This document shows, piece after piece, positions 421 to 7,402 of a DNA stretch of 42,091 nucleotides. The notes beneath the pieces were generated by a model. The model was not told where the DNA came from and did no database searches. It saw nothing but the letters and a program-made list of their open reading frames with translations. A program made the translations under genes and the position numbers. Within the stretch, counting starts at the first letter, position 1, and the number at the start of each line of letters is the position of its first letter. Source of the DNA: Candidatus Eremiobacteraceae bacterium. GTDB taxonomy: Bacteria > Vulcanimicrobiota > Vulcanimicrobiia > Eremiobacterales > Eremiobacteraceae. The stretch spans positions 1-42,091 of the forward strand of contig DASTCX010000029.1 in NCBI GenBank assembly GCA_035710745.1, written 5' to 3'.

Positions 421-1338
421 TTACGAGTGCTGCTTGGTGACGATGTCTTTCGTAGGCGTGGTCGTCGCCGGCTTCACCGGCTTGTCGCGTAGGACGCCGC
501 CGTTCGCGGCGATCATCATGCCTTGGCCCGCGAGCAGGTTCATCACGCGACCCGCCGTGTAGACCGCGACGCTGCCCTTGTTCACGGTGACGTGCGTTCC
601 GGTCAGGCGCTGATCGACGGAGAAGGTCGTGCCGGTCGGTACGACGGTCGCCTGATCGGTCGCGATCTTGATCGGCGATGCTTCGTGGTGGAGATCTTCG
701 TGGACCTGGACGCCGCCGCGGTCGACGTGGACGTCGATCTCGTTGATGTTGCCGGTCTTCGGGTCGGTCGCGACGCGCTCGAAGTGCACCTGCGAGCCGC
801 CCTGGAGCGTCATGTTGAGGTGCGCGGTGAGAGCGACGACCGCCGGGTTGATCGATGTGTTCGCGACGGTCGAGCCGCCGGTGATATCCATCGTGCCGTT
901 CGCGACGTTCGTCGTCGCGCCGTTGTCGATCGTCTCGAGAGCGCCTTGGACGGCGGCGACGAGCGGCGGACCGCTCACCGGTAGACTCGCGTTGTGGACG
1001 TAGACACCGACCGCGAGCGCGGCTGCGAGGACGCCGCCGAAGGCGCTCGCCTGGCGCCAATTCTGACGAGCGGCGGTCGTGATCGAGCGGACCTTGTCGG
1101 AAGGCGTCGATGACGAGCTGCCATGGACGACGCGGCTGATGATCCGTTGTTCGAGGCCGCGCGGCACAGTAAGCTGCGGCACGTGCCGGATCAGCTCTTG
1201 GAACCGTTCCGCCTTGATCATGCTGCTCGCGCATGCGAAGCAGGTGCGGCGATGGCCGTCGAGGAGCGACTGTTGGGTGGGCGTGATCTGCCCGTCGAAC
1301 GACGAGTAGAGAAGATCGAGCGCTTCAGAGCATTCCAT
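421..1338 (-). CDS. Anti-sigma factor with zinc-finger N-terminus and FecR-like domain
   Basis: A 305-residue protein likely to hold the neighbouring ECF sigma factor inactive at the inner membrane. C3 and the motif H29-x3-C33-x2-C36 form a ZAS/zf-HC2 anti-sigma finger. One hydrophobic helix spans about residues 97-115. The outer part carries a FecR-like segment (PTGTTFSVDQ, then VTVNKGSVAVYTAGRV), a beta-rich domain often used to receive an envelope signal. The ATG at 1338 is preceded by AGGGAAGGAAG, a good ribosome site. The gene follows the sigma gene by 18 bases, so the two are co-transcribed, and a strong terminator follows. FecR-type regulators usually sit next to a TonB receptor gene; none is adjacent here, so the signal is unknown. 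Confidence 0.85.
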   Translation of the reverse strand: MECSEALDLLYSSFDGQITPTQQSLLDGHRRTCFACASSMIKAERFQELIRHVPQLTVPRGLEQRIISRVVHGSSSSTPSDKVRSITTAARQNWRQASAFGGVLAAALAVGVYVHNASLPVSGPPLVAAVQGALETIDNGATTNVANGTMDITGGSTVANTSINPAVVALTAHLNMTLQGGSQVHFERVATDPKTGNINEIDVHVDRGGVQVHEDLHHEASPIKIATDQATVVPTGTTFSVDQRLTGTHVTVNKGSVAVYTAGRVMNLLAGQGMMIAANGGVLRDKPVKPATTTPTKDIVTKQHS

Positions 1339-1356: not shown

Positions 1357-1968
1357 CTAACTGATCAGCGGGTCGAGCCAGACCTGGAGGCGCCGCTTGG
1401 CGCGACACAGGTTGGTGCGAGCCGCCTGCTCGTTCATGCCCAGGATGTCGGCGATCTCGCCGTACGAGAGTCCCTGAAGCTCCCGAAGGATGAAGACCAT
1501 TCGCTGCTGGCTAGGCAACGCTCGCAAGCCATCCTCGAGCTCGCGGAACGTCTCGCCGCGGACCGCCGTCGCATCCGGCCGATCTTCGGTCCGGCTGACG
1601 AGTTCCGCTTCGTTCACGTCATCGATGTCCGCCATCGGCACGCCCGACTTGCCTTGATGGGTGAGGCAGACGTTCACGCAGATGCGGTAGAGCCAAGACG
1701 ATACTTTGCTGCGCCCCGAAAACGTGTTGGCATGCTGGTAGGCGCGCAGGAACGATTCCTGGACGAGGTCCTCGGCCGAGGAAGCATTGTATCGGTACGC
1801 GACGTTGTAGAGCATCCGTGTGTATCGCCTCACCAGCTCTGCGAACGCTTCGCCGTCGCCGTTGGCGATGCGCTGCATCAGGGCAAGGTCTTTGCCCAGC
1901 GAGACCGGTTCTAGGTGATACGACCGGACCGCCCCCGGAATTGTTACACCGAAAAAGATTGGCAGCAT
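1357..1968 (-). CDS. ECF (sigma-70 family) RNA polymerase sigma factor
   Basis: A 203-residue protein of group IV sigma factor size. Region 2 is clear: FAELVRRYTRMLYNVAYRY followed by SAEDLVQESFLRAYQ and SSWLYRICVN. Region 4 follows after a linker: LPSQQRMVFILRELQGLSYGEIADIL, then NEQAARTNLCRAKRRLQ as the helix-turn-helix that reads the -35 box. It would direct RNA polymerase to a small regulon when released by the anti-sigma factor encoded directly downstream. The ATG at 1968 is used because it opens the frame, but no strong ribosome site is close, and a start some residues further in is possible, since region 2 begins only near residue 25. Confidence 0.93.
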   Translation of the reverse strand: MLPIFFGVTIPGAVRSYHLEPVSLGKDLALMQRIANGDGEAFAELVRRYTRMLYNVAYRYNASSAEDLVQESFLRAYQHANTFSGRSKVSSWLYRICVNVCLTHQGKSGVPMADIDDVNEAELVSRTEDRPDATAVRGETFRELEDGLRALPSQQRMVFILRELQGLSYGEIADILGMNEQAARTNLCRAKRRLQVWLDPLIS

Positions 1969-2103: not shown

Positions 2104-3336
2104 TTGCGAGGCTTTGCGGGACGGCCGCTCGAAAACCGCGTTTGCGTGCGAAACTTCATATTAGAAGAGCTGGCCGACGCACTCGACGACCGCAGCGGCC
2201 AGTTCCGCTACTTTTTCATCCTCTCCGATTGCCGGCTCGAGCCGTACGCAGCCGACGATCCGGGCGCACGCGGCTGCTCTTCTCGCAACGACGCCGTCGC
2301 CGTCCATCCGCTCTCGCATGCCGATGCGCACGAGATGATCCGCGACTTCATCGCGACGCTCGCTGACGGCGAGCTGGCCGAACGTCTTCATTCTGCCGCG
2401 GCCGGCCCATCGCCCGCACGCTTCCTTCAAGTCATCGGCGCATTCCCGCGCGCCAGGCGTTCGTGGTTGTCGTATCGCCAACGGCGGCTCGAGGCGGTGG
2501 CGCTCGATTGGCTTCGGAGCCAGAACGTCGACCTGCAGCGCCTTGGCTTGGACAAGGCGCCCCGGGCGGAGGAAGAAGCGATCGGTCTGCGCTTCGACGG
2601 AGCGCTCGAGGCGCGAATGCGCGAGGTCGACGAACGGGTCAAGGCGTTATGGCGGCGCGGCGCCGCCGCGATCGCGTCCGCCGGGGCGATCCGCGCCGAG
2701 CTCCATCTCGATGAGATCTACCACTCGAACGCGGTGCGCGGCAACCGGCTCGACCGCGTTCAGACGGAGGCGCTCGTGCTGCGCGGCGAGACGGTGGGCG
2801 GTCTCACGCTGCGCGAACATCTCGAGGCGGTCAATCTGCACAAAGCGCTCGGGCACGTCGACGTGCTCGCTAAGAGTCAGGCACCGTTGACGGAGCGTGC
2901 GATCCGCGAACTCCACATGCTGCTGTTCGCAGCTATCGACGACGAGAACGCCGGCACGTATCGTAGGATCGACACGCGCATCGTCGGCTCCGATTATCTT
3001 CCGCCGGAATCGGCGCTCGTGCCGGCGCTCGTGCGCGAGTTCACCGAGTGGCTCGATGAGACGAGCGCCGCGACGCTCGCGAAAGCGGCGGCGGCGCAGG
3101 CGAAGATCCAGAACATCTCGCCGTTCCTCGACGGGAACGGCCGCGTCGGACGCCTGCTTTCGAGCATGGTGCTGAGCGGCTCTGGCTACCCGCCGGCGAT
3201 CGTGCGCTCGGATGACGCCGATCGCTACTACGACGGCCTGCGTCAATCCGACGCCGGCGACCTGAGCGCCATGCTCGCGCTGACGATCGATTGCGTCGGT
3301 GCTTCGCTCGCGCGGCTCGAAGCCGCGCTGAAATAA
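2104..3336 (+). CDS. UPF0158-Fic fusion protein with degenerate Fic active site
   Basis: A 410-residue two-domain protein. Residues about 15-145 match the UPF0158 pattern (ILEELADALDDRS, MIRDFIATL, a W-x-x-Y segment and ALDWLRSQ). Residues about 190-400 are a Fic domain, the fold that transfers AMP from ATP to target proteins. The canonical motif HPFxDGNGRxxR reads SPFLDGNGRVGR, with S339 where the catalytic His belongs. The inhibitory motif S/TxxxE(G/N) reads SNAVRGN (208-214), with Arg for Glu. Losing both together suggests a non-AMPylating Fic relative, though another transfer chemistry cannot be excluded. The frame opens with TTG at 2104; GTG at 2146, at the domain edge, is an alternative. 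It starts a tight operon with two DNA-processing genes. Confidence 0.8.
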   Translation: MRGFAGRPLENRVCVRNFILEELADALDDRSGQFRYFFILSDCRLEPYAADDPGARGCSSRNDAVAVHPLSHADAHEMIRDFIATLADGELAERLHSAAAGPSPARFLQVIGAFPRARRSWLSYRQRRLEAVALDWLRSQNVDLQRLGLDKAPRAEEEAIGLRFDGALEARMREVDERVKALWRRGAAAIASAGAIRAELHLDEIYHSNAVRGNRLDRVQTEALVLRGETVGGLTLREHLEAVNLHKALGHVDVLAKSQAPLTERAIRELHMLLFAAIDDENAGTYRRIDTRIVGSDYLPPESALVPALVREFTEWLDETSAATLAKAAAAQAKIQNISPFLDGNGRVGRLLSSMVLSGSGYPPAIVRSDDADRYYDGLRQSDAGDLSAMLALTIDCVGASLARLEAALK

Positions 3337-3339
3337 CCG

Positions 3340-5289
3340 TTGTCCGCGGCGGAGAGGGCGGCGGCGTATCGCGGACTGATCGCCGAGCCGTCGCTCGCAG
3401 TACTTGCGTCCGATCGCGGTGCGCTCGACGAGTTCTGCTCGCTGAGCAGGGCCGTGGAAAACGCCGGCGTCTCGGATGCTGCGCTGGCCGCGGCGTGCGC
3501 CGACGCCGAACAGTCGATCGCGACTGTAGCTCGCGTGCTGCTTGCCATGCGCGGTACGCTGCGCGCCGCATCGCCCGGCATCGCCGCGTCGACCGCGATA
3601 CCTGGAACGCAGGATCGCTTTGAAATCGCTGCGAGCTCGCTTGCAGAAGCGCTCGACATCGTCGCGCGTGATGGCTTTGAGCGCGCCGAGGTGCCTCGCG
3701 ACGTCGTCGCAGCCCTCGGCGTCGATGATCCGCCGGCCATCCGCGTTCTACGGGCGGCGTTCTCGAGCGATGACCGGTCGCTTGTCGAGGCGCTCGCCGG
3801 CGATTTCGACGTCGCAGAGCTGAAAGCGGCGGAGAGGCTCGCGGGTCAGCGGTCGCTGCGCGCCGGTTTGCGCACAACGGGAGCGGCATTTCGCGGAATC
3901 GGCTCGCGCGAGCGTGCCGTCGAGTGGTTCGATCGCCTCGAAGTAGTACGCCGAGGCGGCCGAAAGCGCCGCGGAGCGCTTCGCGCCGCAGTCGAAGCGA
4001 CAGGCGTTTGCGACGCGGACGTCGCGAAGCACGCTGCATCGGCAGACGCGGTTTGGGACTCGCTCGACGATCCGCCGTCGTTTGGCGTGCGAGCGGCGCT
4101 ACTTTGTGACGCGCTCTCGACGGCTCGCATCTCCGATGATTTTCGGCTCGTGCCTATCGGCACCGATACTAGCCATCCAGCTCGGATCGACTTCGACGAC
4201 GCACCGGGAGGAGCCGTCGATGTCGCGGCGTTTGCGACCGCGATCGGCTGCGACGGACCGCTGTTCCACGGGCCTCATGTGCGCGTTCGTTTGCCTGCGA
4301 ATGAAGTGGTCGCGCGCTTCTTGCAGCAGCGGGGCGAAGCTGAGAATGTCCGCGTACGGCTGGATCGTCCGCTTCCGGAGAGCGGCGGCATGGTCGTCGC
4401 TCCGCGCATGACGTTCTCGGCGTCGCGGCTCAACATGTTCGTGAAATGTCCGCGCCGATTTTTCTACGAGTATCTCTGCGATGCCGTCGACGAACGCACG
4501 ACGTCGAACGCAGTGTACGGAAAGGTCTTCCATGCCGCGCTCGAGGCGCTCCATCGCGAGGTGCGCATCCCGTCCGCGTGGCAGCGCGGCGAAGTCCTCG
4601 ACAAGCTCTGCTTGCAGCTCGACGCCGCGTTCGGCGTCGCGAGTCGCGAGTTCGAGTCGGAGCTCGAGTACGCGGTGCTCCGGTTGCGCGCACGTCAGGT
4701 CGCGCGCCATTACGTCCGCTGGCTCTTCGAAGAGACGGCGGACGCGCCGCTCGAGATCTCGGATGTCGAAGAGCGACATGATGTCCTGCTCGGCGACCAT
4801 CGCTTCGTCGGCTACATCGATCGCGTCGACCGCCCTGCGGGCGGCGGTCCGGTCACGATCCTCGACTACAAGACCGGCCGCATCGAAGAAGATCCGGAGG
4901 AGTACCTGCGACAGGTGCGTACCGGCGATGAGGCGCAGCTCGCTCTCTACTACGCGATGCGCCGCGCGCGCGGTGACCAGGTGGCGCGTATCGCGCTCGT
5001 ATCGATCCGCGACGCCCGCGATCGCACGTGGGTGCTCGCGCTCGACATCGCCGACGAATCCGGCAAGTCGGTCGCGCCGAGGCGCGAACGCGCCGGTGTC
5101 CTGCGCGCGACGTGTTCGCTCGCCGATCTCGAGGCATCGCTCGCCGCGCTGACGCGCCGGTGCGACGAGATCACGACCGAGGGCTTCGATCATTTCGCGG
5201 TCGGCGACGATCCGCCATGTTCGTACTGCGCGTACGCCGCTTCGTGCCGCGAGCGACCCGATGACCAGGAGCGGATCTTTGCTCGCTGA
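3340..5289 (+). CDS. PD-(D/E)XK nuclease, AddB/RecB-like with Fe-S cysteines
   Basis: A 649-residue protein whose C-terminal half is a PDDEXK_1 nuclease. The metal-binding residues are visible: D494 and D497 in GYIDRVD, D509-x-K511 in LDYKTG, and a QLALYY motif after them. C370 (in FVKCPRRFFYEY) together with C627, C630 and C636 (C-x2-C-x5-C) reproduces the four-cysteine iron-sulphur pattern of AddB-type nucleases. The N-terminal 350 residues are low-identity and show no Walker A motif. It begins with TTG three bases after the Fic stop and overlaps the helicase gene by 29 bases, so the two products very likely act as a pair in end resection, repair or defence. It is much shorter than classical AddB, which has about 1,100 residues. 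Confidence 0.85.
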   Translation: MSAAERAAAYRGLIAEPSLAVLASDRGALDEFCSLSRAVENAGVSDAALAAACADAEQSIATVARVLLAMRGTLRAASPGIAASTAIPGTQDRFEIAASSLAEALDIVARDGFERAEVPRDVVAALGVDDPPAIRVLRAAFSSDDRSLVEALAGDFDVAELKAAERLAGQRSLRAGLRTTGAAFRGIGSRERAVEWFDRLEVVRRGGRKRRGALRAAVEATGVCDADVAKHAASADAVWDSLDDPPSFGVRAALLCDALSTARISDDFRLVPIGTDTSHPARIDFDDAPGGAVDVAAFATAIGCDGPLFHGPHVRVRLPANEVVARFLQQRGEAENVRVRLDRPLPESGGMVVAPRMTFSASRLNMFVKCPRRFFYEYLCDAVDERTTSNAVYGKVFHAALEALHREVRIPSAWQRGEVLDKLCLQLDAAFGVASREFESELEYAVLRLRARQVARHYVRWLFEETADAPLEISDVEERHDVLLGDHRFVGYIDRVDRPAGGGPVTILDYKTGRIEEDPEEYLRQVRTGDEAQLALYYAMRRARGDQVARIALVSIRDARDRTWVLALDIADESGKSVAPRRERAGVLRATCSLADLEASLAALTRRCDEITTEGFDHFAVGDDPPCSYCAYAASCRERPDDQERIFAR

Positions 5290-7402
5290 ACAGCCGGTGC
5301 CGCTCTCCGAAGCGCAGCGGAGCGTCGCGTCGTTCGACGGTCCGTCGCCGCTGCTCGTCACGGGGCCGCCCGGCTCCGGAAAGACGACCGCACTCGCTGC
5401 GCTCGCAGGGCGCTGGGCCGAGGCAGGCCCGGTCACCGTCGTCTGCGCGAACGATGCGTCGCGCGCTGCTTTTCTTGCGAGTGCGATACGGTTAGGGATC
5501 AGCGAAGGGATCGTCGTGGAGACCCTTCCCGGGCATTTGGCATCGTGGATGCGTCGCGAGTTCGCCGCGTCCGGCGCATCGCCGCGCCTGGCGGTCGGAG
5601 CGGAAGCAGATTCGATCGCGCTCGCTCGAGAGGCCGGCCGTACGATACTCGACATGACGTGGCCAGGTTTCCGCAGCACCGAGTTCGTCCTCGATCTTCC
5701 GTTCTTGGCCCGGCCCGACGTCTTTTTCGAAGAGACTGCGCGCCTTTTCCAACAGCTTCGGCGCAGGCTCGTCGATCCCGAGAGCTTCAGCGCGGGTTGT
5801 GCCGGAGGCATCGAAGCGTTCTACGGAGCCGATGTCGAGCGAGCACGTGCGCTTTGTGCCGACGGCAGCGTTCGATCGAACGCGAGCCGTCGCGGGCGTG
5901 AAGCGATGTCGGCGACGGTCGATCAGCTTCGCGTGCAGCGACGCGCCGAACGCGATCTAGCGGTGATGCTCGTCTTCCTGTATGGCGAGTACGCCGGCCT
6001 CGCGCGCGGCAGGAGCGTGTTGTGCGCGGAAGACGTCATCGCGGAAGGCGTCGCCTGGCTCGAGCGCGATCCGGACGCGGTCGCACGGCTCGCCGCGCGA
6101 TCCGGCGGATTCGTCGTCGACGATGCGGAGGACGCCGAGCCGGCGCTCGCGCCTTTGCTCGAGATCTTAGGTCGCGCCGGCGGCGTGCGGCTTGCCGCCG
6201 CGATCTGCCCGTCGTCGGCGATCGAAGGCATCCGCGGGCGCCGCGCGCTTGCGCTCGATGTGTCTGCCGAGAAGATCGTGCTGCCGCCGCCGGCGAGCCG
6301 CTGCGCGACGACCGCGGCGCGGTTCTCGGACGAAGGCGCCGAAGCCGACGCCGTCGCGCGCGACATCCGCGAGCTGCTCGATCAGGGCTCTCGACCTTCG
6401 GACGTCCTCGTGTTGACGCGCGACCGGCACGCGGCCGCCATCTACGTCCGTGCTCTGTCCGAGCGCGGCGTGCCGATCGCGGCACCGCGCGAGTCGTGGC
6501 AGGCGTCCGATGATATCGCCGACTTGCTCGCGCTTGCGTGCGTCGTCGACGACCCCTACGATCACGCGCACTTGCTGCGCGTTCTTTCGTCGCCGGTCGT
6601 CGCGCTGTCCGACCTGTCGTTGCTGCGCTTGTGCCGCGACCCGGAGGACGCGGACCAACTGGCGCTCGACGTCGGGCTGGACGACGCGCGCTTGAGCGGC
6701 GGGCGCGGCGTCGCCTCGACGACCCTAGCCGAAAACGTCCTCTACGGACTAGCCGACCAGCGCTTGTCGGAAGATGCGCGCGTCTCGCTCGTGACGTTCC
6801 GGGAGCGCTCGAAGGCGTGGCGGACGGCGTGTGCGCGCATGAGTCCTCCGTCAGCGCTCGCATACCTCAGCGAAGTCGGTGGGTTCCGAGCCGAGTGGCA
6901 CGCCGCGCCCGAGCATCTGCGCGAGCGCCTTTCCGAGGATGCGAGGCGTCTCGTAGCGGCGGCGTGCGGGCAGCCCGGCGGACTCGGCGATGTGGCGCGC
7001 ACGCTCGAATCTGGTCTGGCGGCGATCGAACCCTCAAAGGCCGGCGGCGACGCCGTCGGCAGCGAGACGATCGCCGGCGTCAAAGGATCGCGCGCGCCAT
7101 ACGTGTTCGTCACAGGCGTGGCACACAATCGCTTCCCGCGGATCTATGTCTCGCACGCGCTCTCCTTCACGAAGCAGTGGGGTCTCATCGCCCGCGAGAA
7201 CGTAGCCGGGGGCGCATCGCAGACGGCGAAGTTCGCGTGGTACTATGCCAAACACGGCGCGAAGCGGATGTATATAGAAGAAGAGCGACGCGCGCTCGCC
7301 TACGCGTTGTCGCGTGCCGACGTTGCGGCACGCGCGACGGGCTACGGCTCGACGCCGCGCTGGGCCGCCGACCAAGACTTGCTCTCGGCATACGGCGCAT
7401 GA
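5261..7402 (+). CDS. Divergent UvrD/AddA-like superfamily 1 helicase
   Basis: A 713-residue protein with a Q-motif glutamine (Q19) and a good Walker A, GPPGSGKTT (35-43, K41). Motif II reads VVDDAEDAEP with D287-D288 instead of the usual DE. Motif III lacks the usual GDxxQSIYxFRGA; the matching segment is CPSSAIEGIRGRRA. Motif VI is good (EEERRALAYALSRA). Near the C-terminus GVKGSRAPYVFVTGV is a weak version of the HxxKGLEW motif. ATP binding looks possible but strand unwinding may be reduced, as in AddB, which keeps the fold but not all motifs. The gene starts inside the nuclease gene and its TGA overlaps the next ATG, so translation is coupled on both sides. Confidence 0.82.
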   Translation: MTRSGSLLAEQPVPLSEAQRSVASFDGPSPLLVTGPPGSGKTTALAALAGRWAEAGPVTVVCANDASRAAFLASAIRLGISEGIVVETLPGHLASWMRREFAASGASPRLAVGAEADSIALAREAGRTILDMTWPGFRSTEFVLDLPFLARPDVFFEETARLFQQLRRRLVDPESFSAGCAGGIEAFYGADVERARALCADGSVRSNASRRGREAMSATVDQLRVQRRAERDLAVMLVFLYGEYAGLARGRSVLCAEDVIAEGVAWLERDPDAVARLAARSGGFVVDDAEDAEPALAPLLEILGRAGGVRLAAAICPSSAIEGIRGRRALALDVSAEKIVLPPPASRCATTAARFSDEGAEADAVARDIRELLDQGSRPSDVLVLTRDRHAAAIYVRALSERGVPIAAPRESWQASDDIADLLALACVVDDPYDHAHLLRVLSSPVVALSDLSLLRLCRDPEDADQLALDVGLDDARLSGGRGVASTTLAENVLYGLADQRLSEDARVSLVTFRERSKAWRTACARMSPPSALAYLSEVGGFRAEWHAAPEHLRERLSEDARRLVAAACGQPGGLGDVARTLESGLAAIEPSKAGGDAVGSETIAGVKGSRAPYVFVTGVAHNRFPRIYVSHALSFTKQWGLIARENVAGGASQTAKFAWYYAKHGAKRMYIEEERRALAYALSRADVAARATGYGSTPRWAADQDLLSAYGA

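Follow-up and report, generated by a model that had tools for sequence, protein, structure and literature searches.

A Fic-fold protein with both hallmark residues replaced, fused to a UPF0158 domain and kept beside a nuclease-helicase gene pair in Candidatus Eremiobacterota

Non-catalytic Fic domains have rarely been documented. Non-enzymatic Fic action is already known from BepC, and natural Fic/Doc groups without the catalytic His are known from Doc clade D2 (Qx[FY]x[DE][GV]NKR), in which it is replaced (PMC4454073). BepC and the non-canonical Bartonella Beps conserve the Fic fold, apparently without AMP transfer, and BepC acts by binding a protein (PMC7842960, PMC8401265), a case that its own paper calls unique (PMC7842960). 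AvrB, a rhamnosyltransferase with a Fido fold, likewise lacks the canonical catalytic motif (PMC10866546). In human FICD/HYPE, a Fic protein preceded by a TPR region, N369 and R371 bind the diphosphate, D367 holds Mg (PMC12974487), and the inhibitory Glu234 engages Arg374 (PMC6826200); binding of ADP, GPP, and FPP persists in the H363A mutant (PMC12974487). For the UPF0158 family (PF03682), our literature search returned no function and one passing mention.

Here we analyze a gene that departs from all of these, located in a 42,091-nucleotide stretch of Candidatus Eremiobacteraceae DNA (referred to in its entirety as the window). The open reading frame at positions 2104 to 3336 of the forward strand (410 codons from TTG) codes for a Fic protein, and our analysis bears out the preliminary description of this frame, of its S339 and R212 substitutions, and of its N-terminal UPF0158-like domain. 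By both profile score and fold the protein belongs to the Fic/Doc family (PF02661), the Pfam model matching residues 261 to 357 (E 2.2e-14; 54.5 bits against a cut-off of 24). In the alignment with human FICD, S339 falls on the catalytic His363 (IHPF to ISPF) and R212, encoded by CGC at 2737-2739, on the inhibitory Glu234 (AIEGN to AVRGN), and FICD D367, N369, and R371 correspond to D343, N345, and R347. An AlphaFold2 model built with 54 homologs (with the ten orthologs alone, the core was poorly modeled) had a mean pLDDT of 92.8, a pTM of 0.84, and a FICD-like fold. Its best PDB neighbors by Foldseek were FICD with MgAMP-PNP and MgATP (FICD E 6e-15), with a whole-chain TM of ~0.6 by query against FICD structures.

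The protein thus shares with FICD/HYPE and the class II Fics the fold (best Foldseek and phmmer matches), the anion hole, the Mg-binding Asp, the position of the flap, the helix carrying the former inhibitory motif, and a Leu at the dimer position L258. Compared with FICD/HYPE, His363 is replaced by Ser/Ala and Glu234 by Arg, Gln332 takes the place of the second His in the motif helix (AHYKL to AQAKI), and the front carries UPF0158 instead of TPR. Doc clade D2, in contrast, has a Doc-type motif with Gln instead of Ser/Ala at the catalytic position and is usually single-domain, with no Glu-to-Arg change in the available part of its description (PMC4454073). BepC retains the His (HxFxKGNGR) and is a secreted host effector with a BID domain, whereas the window gene is chromosomal and occupies a fixed locus in environmental bacteria. 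The AvrB motif is more divergent, only the His and Glu being lost here. A partial literature search, mostly of titles and abstracts, turned up neither a Glu-to-Arg replacement combined with loss of the His nor UPF0158 fused to Fic, and none of the papers returned named Eremiobacterota and Fic together.

The named near relatives are all Candidatus Eremiobacterota metagenome-assembled genomes. Full-length orthologs were found in 10 of the 14 genomes of the window's family, representing eight genera and including the window genome, with 64 to 97% identity to the window protein (64 to 69% outside the window's own genus). Of the four noncarriers, three make up genus g5, and the fourth is a 72%-complete genome in which the neighboring helicase is missing as well. 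No further full-length relative turned up when the search was extended to the class (117 genomes) and the phylum (149 genomes). The closest Fics outside the family (L035 and L036) are at most 40% identical across the Fic region, have His and Glu intact, and show no UPF0158 domain at the front of their open frames; close relatives with both residues intact, which would have indicated recent decay, were looked for and not found. No plasmid or phage record covered at least 80% of the query, with only Fic-domain matches among those listed, and viral contigs held no relative. In eight of the ten carriers the protein is the sole Fic of the genome. The gene is vertically kept and under selection.

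Position 212 is Arg in all ten orthologs, specified by CGC, CGG, or CGT, and position 339 is Ser in six (TCG/TCA) and Ala in four (GCG), never His, so that the two substitutions are indeed kept together, as had been asked of relatives at the outset. The nucleotide loop is otherwise intact, again as first described: P340 to V348 and R350 are unchanged, including the Mg-binding D343, the anion-hole residues N345 and R347, and the second motif Arg, R350. L236, at the FICD dimer position, is also invariant, as are flap residues R287, R288, D290, R292, V294, G295, D297, Y298, L299, P300, P301, E302, and S303. Measured against the active-AMPylase motif HPFx(D/E)GNGRxxR, the group therefore matches everywhere except at the His. 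Of the class II self-inhibition motif (S/T)xxxE(G/N), the helix, the Ser, and the GN frame are present (SNAVRGN), with Arg for Glu throughout. In class I FicTA, a small gene ahead of the Fic gene supplies the inhibitory motif; here the comparison covered a reading of the gap between the ECF and Fic genes, and the protein has its own helix, without the Glu, and no catalytic His.

According to the tree of the neighboring genes, residue 339 switched between Ser and Ala at least twice. Since the two alternate freely while the pocket stays fixed, this argues against a catalytic role for residue 339 and suggests that the pocket itself matters. Recruitment of Ser339 as a nucleophile was rejected because four orthologs have Ala there. 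The ratio dN/dS between G000 and G012 was 0.058 for the Fic gene, compared to 0.140 for the nuclease and 0.097 for the helicase gene downstream. Mean pairwise identity was 69% for the Fic protein and 75% for the Fic domain alone versus 44 to 45% for the nuclease and helicase, and none of the ten orthologs has an internal stop. The protein is under strong purifying selection and is not a product of recent decay.

The class has another, separate Fic lineage (L045 to L054, family f3) that also lacks the inhibitory Glu (SSRLAGARLD and similar). In this lineage, the catalytic position is occupied by His in L045, L046, L049, and L053 and by Gln (LQPF) or Arg (IRPF) elsewhere. The Glu can hence go missing while the His stays, which does not bear out, in the form given, the initial supposition that losing the Glu alone would be harmful. 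Most members of this lineage have the C-terminal LYKAAQRGRLRVVRRG..W part.

The N-terminal region belongs to UPF0158, the window sequence itself being borderline: it scored 20.6 bits by hmmscan, just below the gathering score of 21.1, and 22.0 bits when the genomes were searched in translation. Unaided, nine orthologs out of ten clear the cut-off, and G012 scores 20.9 bits, or 21.9 counting neighbors in frame. The fusion to Fic was found in none of the sequences searched beyond the ten orthologs, in keeping with the view that UPF0158 is an unusual Fic partner, and it links an uncharacterized domain to a fold organized about a pocket for a ligand. Genomes of the window's family also hold a standalone UPF0158 paralog (~300 aa) matching this region, such as the 304-aa product of L158:5592-6506 (G000:C19), whose synteny is conserved. 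The start of the gene ahead of this paralog reads like an isopropylmalate/homocitrate synthase.

The true start of the Fic gene is probably the GTG at 2146 rather than the TTG at 2104. This GTG is invariant in the ten orthologs, the L011 ortholog has only three open codons ahead of its counterpart, residues 1 to 11 are disordered in the AlphaFold2 model, and the DNA 5′ of 2146 looks conserved even in genomes without the Fic gene. Residue numbers are nevertheless counted from TTG 2104 throughout (S339, R212), although the GTG product is 14 residues shorter (Table 1). A stretch resembling GCGGGACGGCCGCTCGAA separates the ECF gene from the genes downstream, both where Fic is present and where it is missing (before the nuclease gene in the g5 loci L084 to L086), and could be an ECF-dependent promoter or leader element.

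TABLE 1 Coordinates of the Fic locus features in the window
Feature	Position	Strand	Details
FecR-domain (anti-sigma-like) gene behind the ECF gene	421..1338	-	PF04773; synteny
ECF sigma factor gene, divergent	1357..1968	-	Sigma70_r2/r4_2
Putative promoter or 5′ leader stretch GCGGGACGGCCGCTCGAA	2116..2133	+	Before the Fic start; seen by eye
Pseudo-Fic gene, likely true extent	2146..3336	+	GTG start; 396 aa
UPF0158-like N-terminal domain	2146..2553	+	Residues 15-150; PF03682
Former inhibitory helix (H187-211) and motif SNAVRGNRLD	2662..2754	+	FICD alignment; helix in model
Flap (target-docking hairpin) RRIDTRIVGSDYLPPES	2962..3012	+	Placed by homology to FICD
Fic motif SPFLDGNGRVGR	3118..3153	+	S339 codon TCG at 3118-3120 replaces His; P340-V348 and R350 invariant
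PD-(D/E)XK nuclease gene, directly downstream	3340..5289	+	PF12705, E 5.9e-33
Divergent UvrD-like helicase gene, downstream	5261..7402	+	PF13361; Walker A GPPGSGKTT

The order Fic-nuclease-helicase is identical in all ten carriers. The ECF gene is divergent to the Fic gene at nine of the ten orthologous loci (partial in G011; the G001 contig ends first) and also stands beside the locus in genus g5, and the FecR-type gene follows it wherever the contig extends that far. The nuclease has Cys motifs resembling those in AddB/Cas4-type Fe-S nucleases, with the motifs GYIDRVD, LDYKTG, and CX2CX5C type kept in aligned relatives.

On balance, and with confidence somewhat above even, we read the protein from its sequence as a non-AMPylating Fic pseudoenzyme. 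Its pocket would bind, but not transfer, a nucleotide or some other ligand with a diphosphate, and Arg212, at the site of the old blocking Glu, would help to hold the ligand phosphates. Such an Arg should be unable to engage an Arg as FICD Glu234 does and would add positive charge at the phosphate end. Ligand occupancy might then alter the grip of the UPF0158 domain and/or the flap on a partner protein, making the protein a ligand-sensing adaptor or regulator; the likeliest partner, judging by gene order only, would be the nuclease-helicase pair encoded downstream. In support of this reading, R212 and Ser/Ala339 are fixed across eight genera, residue 339 changed repeatedly within an otherwise unchanged motif, and both dN/dS and identity are stricter than in the two downstream neighbors. 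The FICD-like fold also supports it, since FICD H363A keeps ADP and isoprenoid-diphosphate binding (PMC12974487), as do the occurrence of the protein as sole Fic domain in most carriers, the fixed gene order, and the BepC precedent of a non-catalytic Fic domain (PMC7842960). A pure binder, however, would not obviously need the flap, the Mg-binding Asp, and the anion hole to be conserved together. A more specific proposal, which we regard as unlikely though worth stating, is that the Glu-to-Arg and His-to-Ser/Ala changes made a new enzymatic or ligand-gated device (with a new donor and Arg212 on its phosphates) controlling the helicase-nuclease. If so, this would be a Fic-fold sensor wired to DNA processing, not a protein AMPylator. 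Whichever the case, the group, with both hallmark residues replaced, the pocket otherwise intact, purifying selection, a fixed neighborhood, and usually no other Fic in the cell, offers a clean natural experiment on the uses of a Fic pocket apart from transfer chemistry.

Foremost among the competing readings is an active transferase using another chemistry, in which the pocket and flap would still join a donor and a target, with another residue or the substrate assisting in place of the His. The invariance of the Mg-binding Asp, the anion hole, both motif Args, and the flap core is what such an enzyme would show, and AvrB, despite its divergent motif, acts as a glycosyltransferase with UDP-rhamnose (PMC10866546). 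IbpA His mutants are moreover reported to have residual activity, the His-to-Ala protein retaining some AMPylation (PMC4454073), which makes residual AMPylation compatible with the sequence here. We nonetheless hold this chemistry to be a minority prospect, as no invariant residue near the motif is evident as a new base, position 339 alternates between Ser and Ala, and AvrB is a loose parallel, its motif being divergent where here only the His and Glu are gone. Retention of the pocket also weighs on the idea of a purely structural scaffold, in which the Fic fold would dimerize and bind a protein with the pocket irrelevant, as BepC does with GEF-H1. BepC works with all four motif residues mutated (PMC7842960), and invariant L236 would fit dimerization, but a pocket-independent scaffold would have no need for a pocket invariant across orthologs that are 64 to 69% identical outside the window genus, and we consider it improbable.

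A slightly poorer prospect still is that the protein reads or traps proteins bearing AMP or another modification, in the manner of FICD H363A, which holds AMPylated BiP with a low off-rate (PMC6826200). The parts that such a trap would use, pocket and flap, are those conserved here; however, the FICD trap retains Glu234 where this protein has Arg, and eight of the ten carriers have no other Fic to write the mark (a count of Fic proteins). The lack of another Fic counts generally against the protein partnering or reading one, and a canonical Fic partner in trans, as in a pseudo-antitoxin or heterodimer, was rejected as a general role on the same grounds. Loss of both hallmark residues might finally suggest the decaying relic of a canonical Fic, a reading to which we attach almost no weight given a dN/dS of 0.058, ten orthologs free of internal stops, a fixed R212, and conservation above that of the downstream neighbors, all of which led us to reject recent decay.

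As to the putative partners, helicase relatives occur in 110 of the 117 genomes of the class, so that the nuclease-helicase pair predates the fusion gene. Since g5 and class members without a Fic ortholog also have the pair, the Fic protein is not an essential subunit of it. Within the family, the g5 genomes are the only ones seen with the locus but without Fic. Their helicases (L084 to L086) have a shortened N terminus and an eroded Walker A (SPRATGMTA, SLRGAGMTA, and SVSGAGKTT), whereas the helicases of carriers and aligned outgroups retain the GK(T/S) P-loop; this erosion, in a single lineage, hints at a functional link between Fic and helicase. The AU p values, 0.168 for all carriers forming one clade without g5 and 0.401 for g5 grouping with the window genus, are compatible both with loss of the Fic gene in g5 and with its absence there from the start.

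The nuclease and helicase fall far below the AddA/AddB equivalog cut-offs and do not qualify as members of AddAB/AdnAB. Elsewhere in the genome, at G000:C3:66445-72709, two adjacent frames, one 1,066 aa and the other 1,093 aa long, both combine a UvrD helicase with a PD-(D/E)XK domain and are AdnAB-like. Because of this separate fusion pair, the neighbors of the Fic gene are unlikely to be the main double-strand break repair complex and would instead constitute an extra module. In the UvrD-like helicase at 5261-7402 and its class relatives, the Walker B-like motif has DD for DE (VDDAED) in all 18 aligned sequences.
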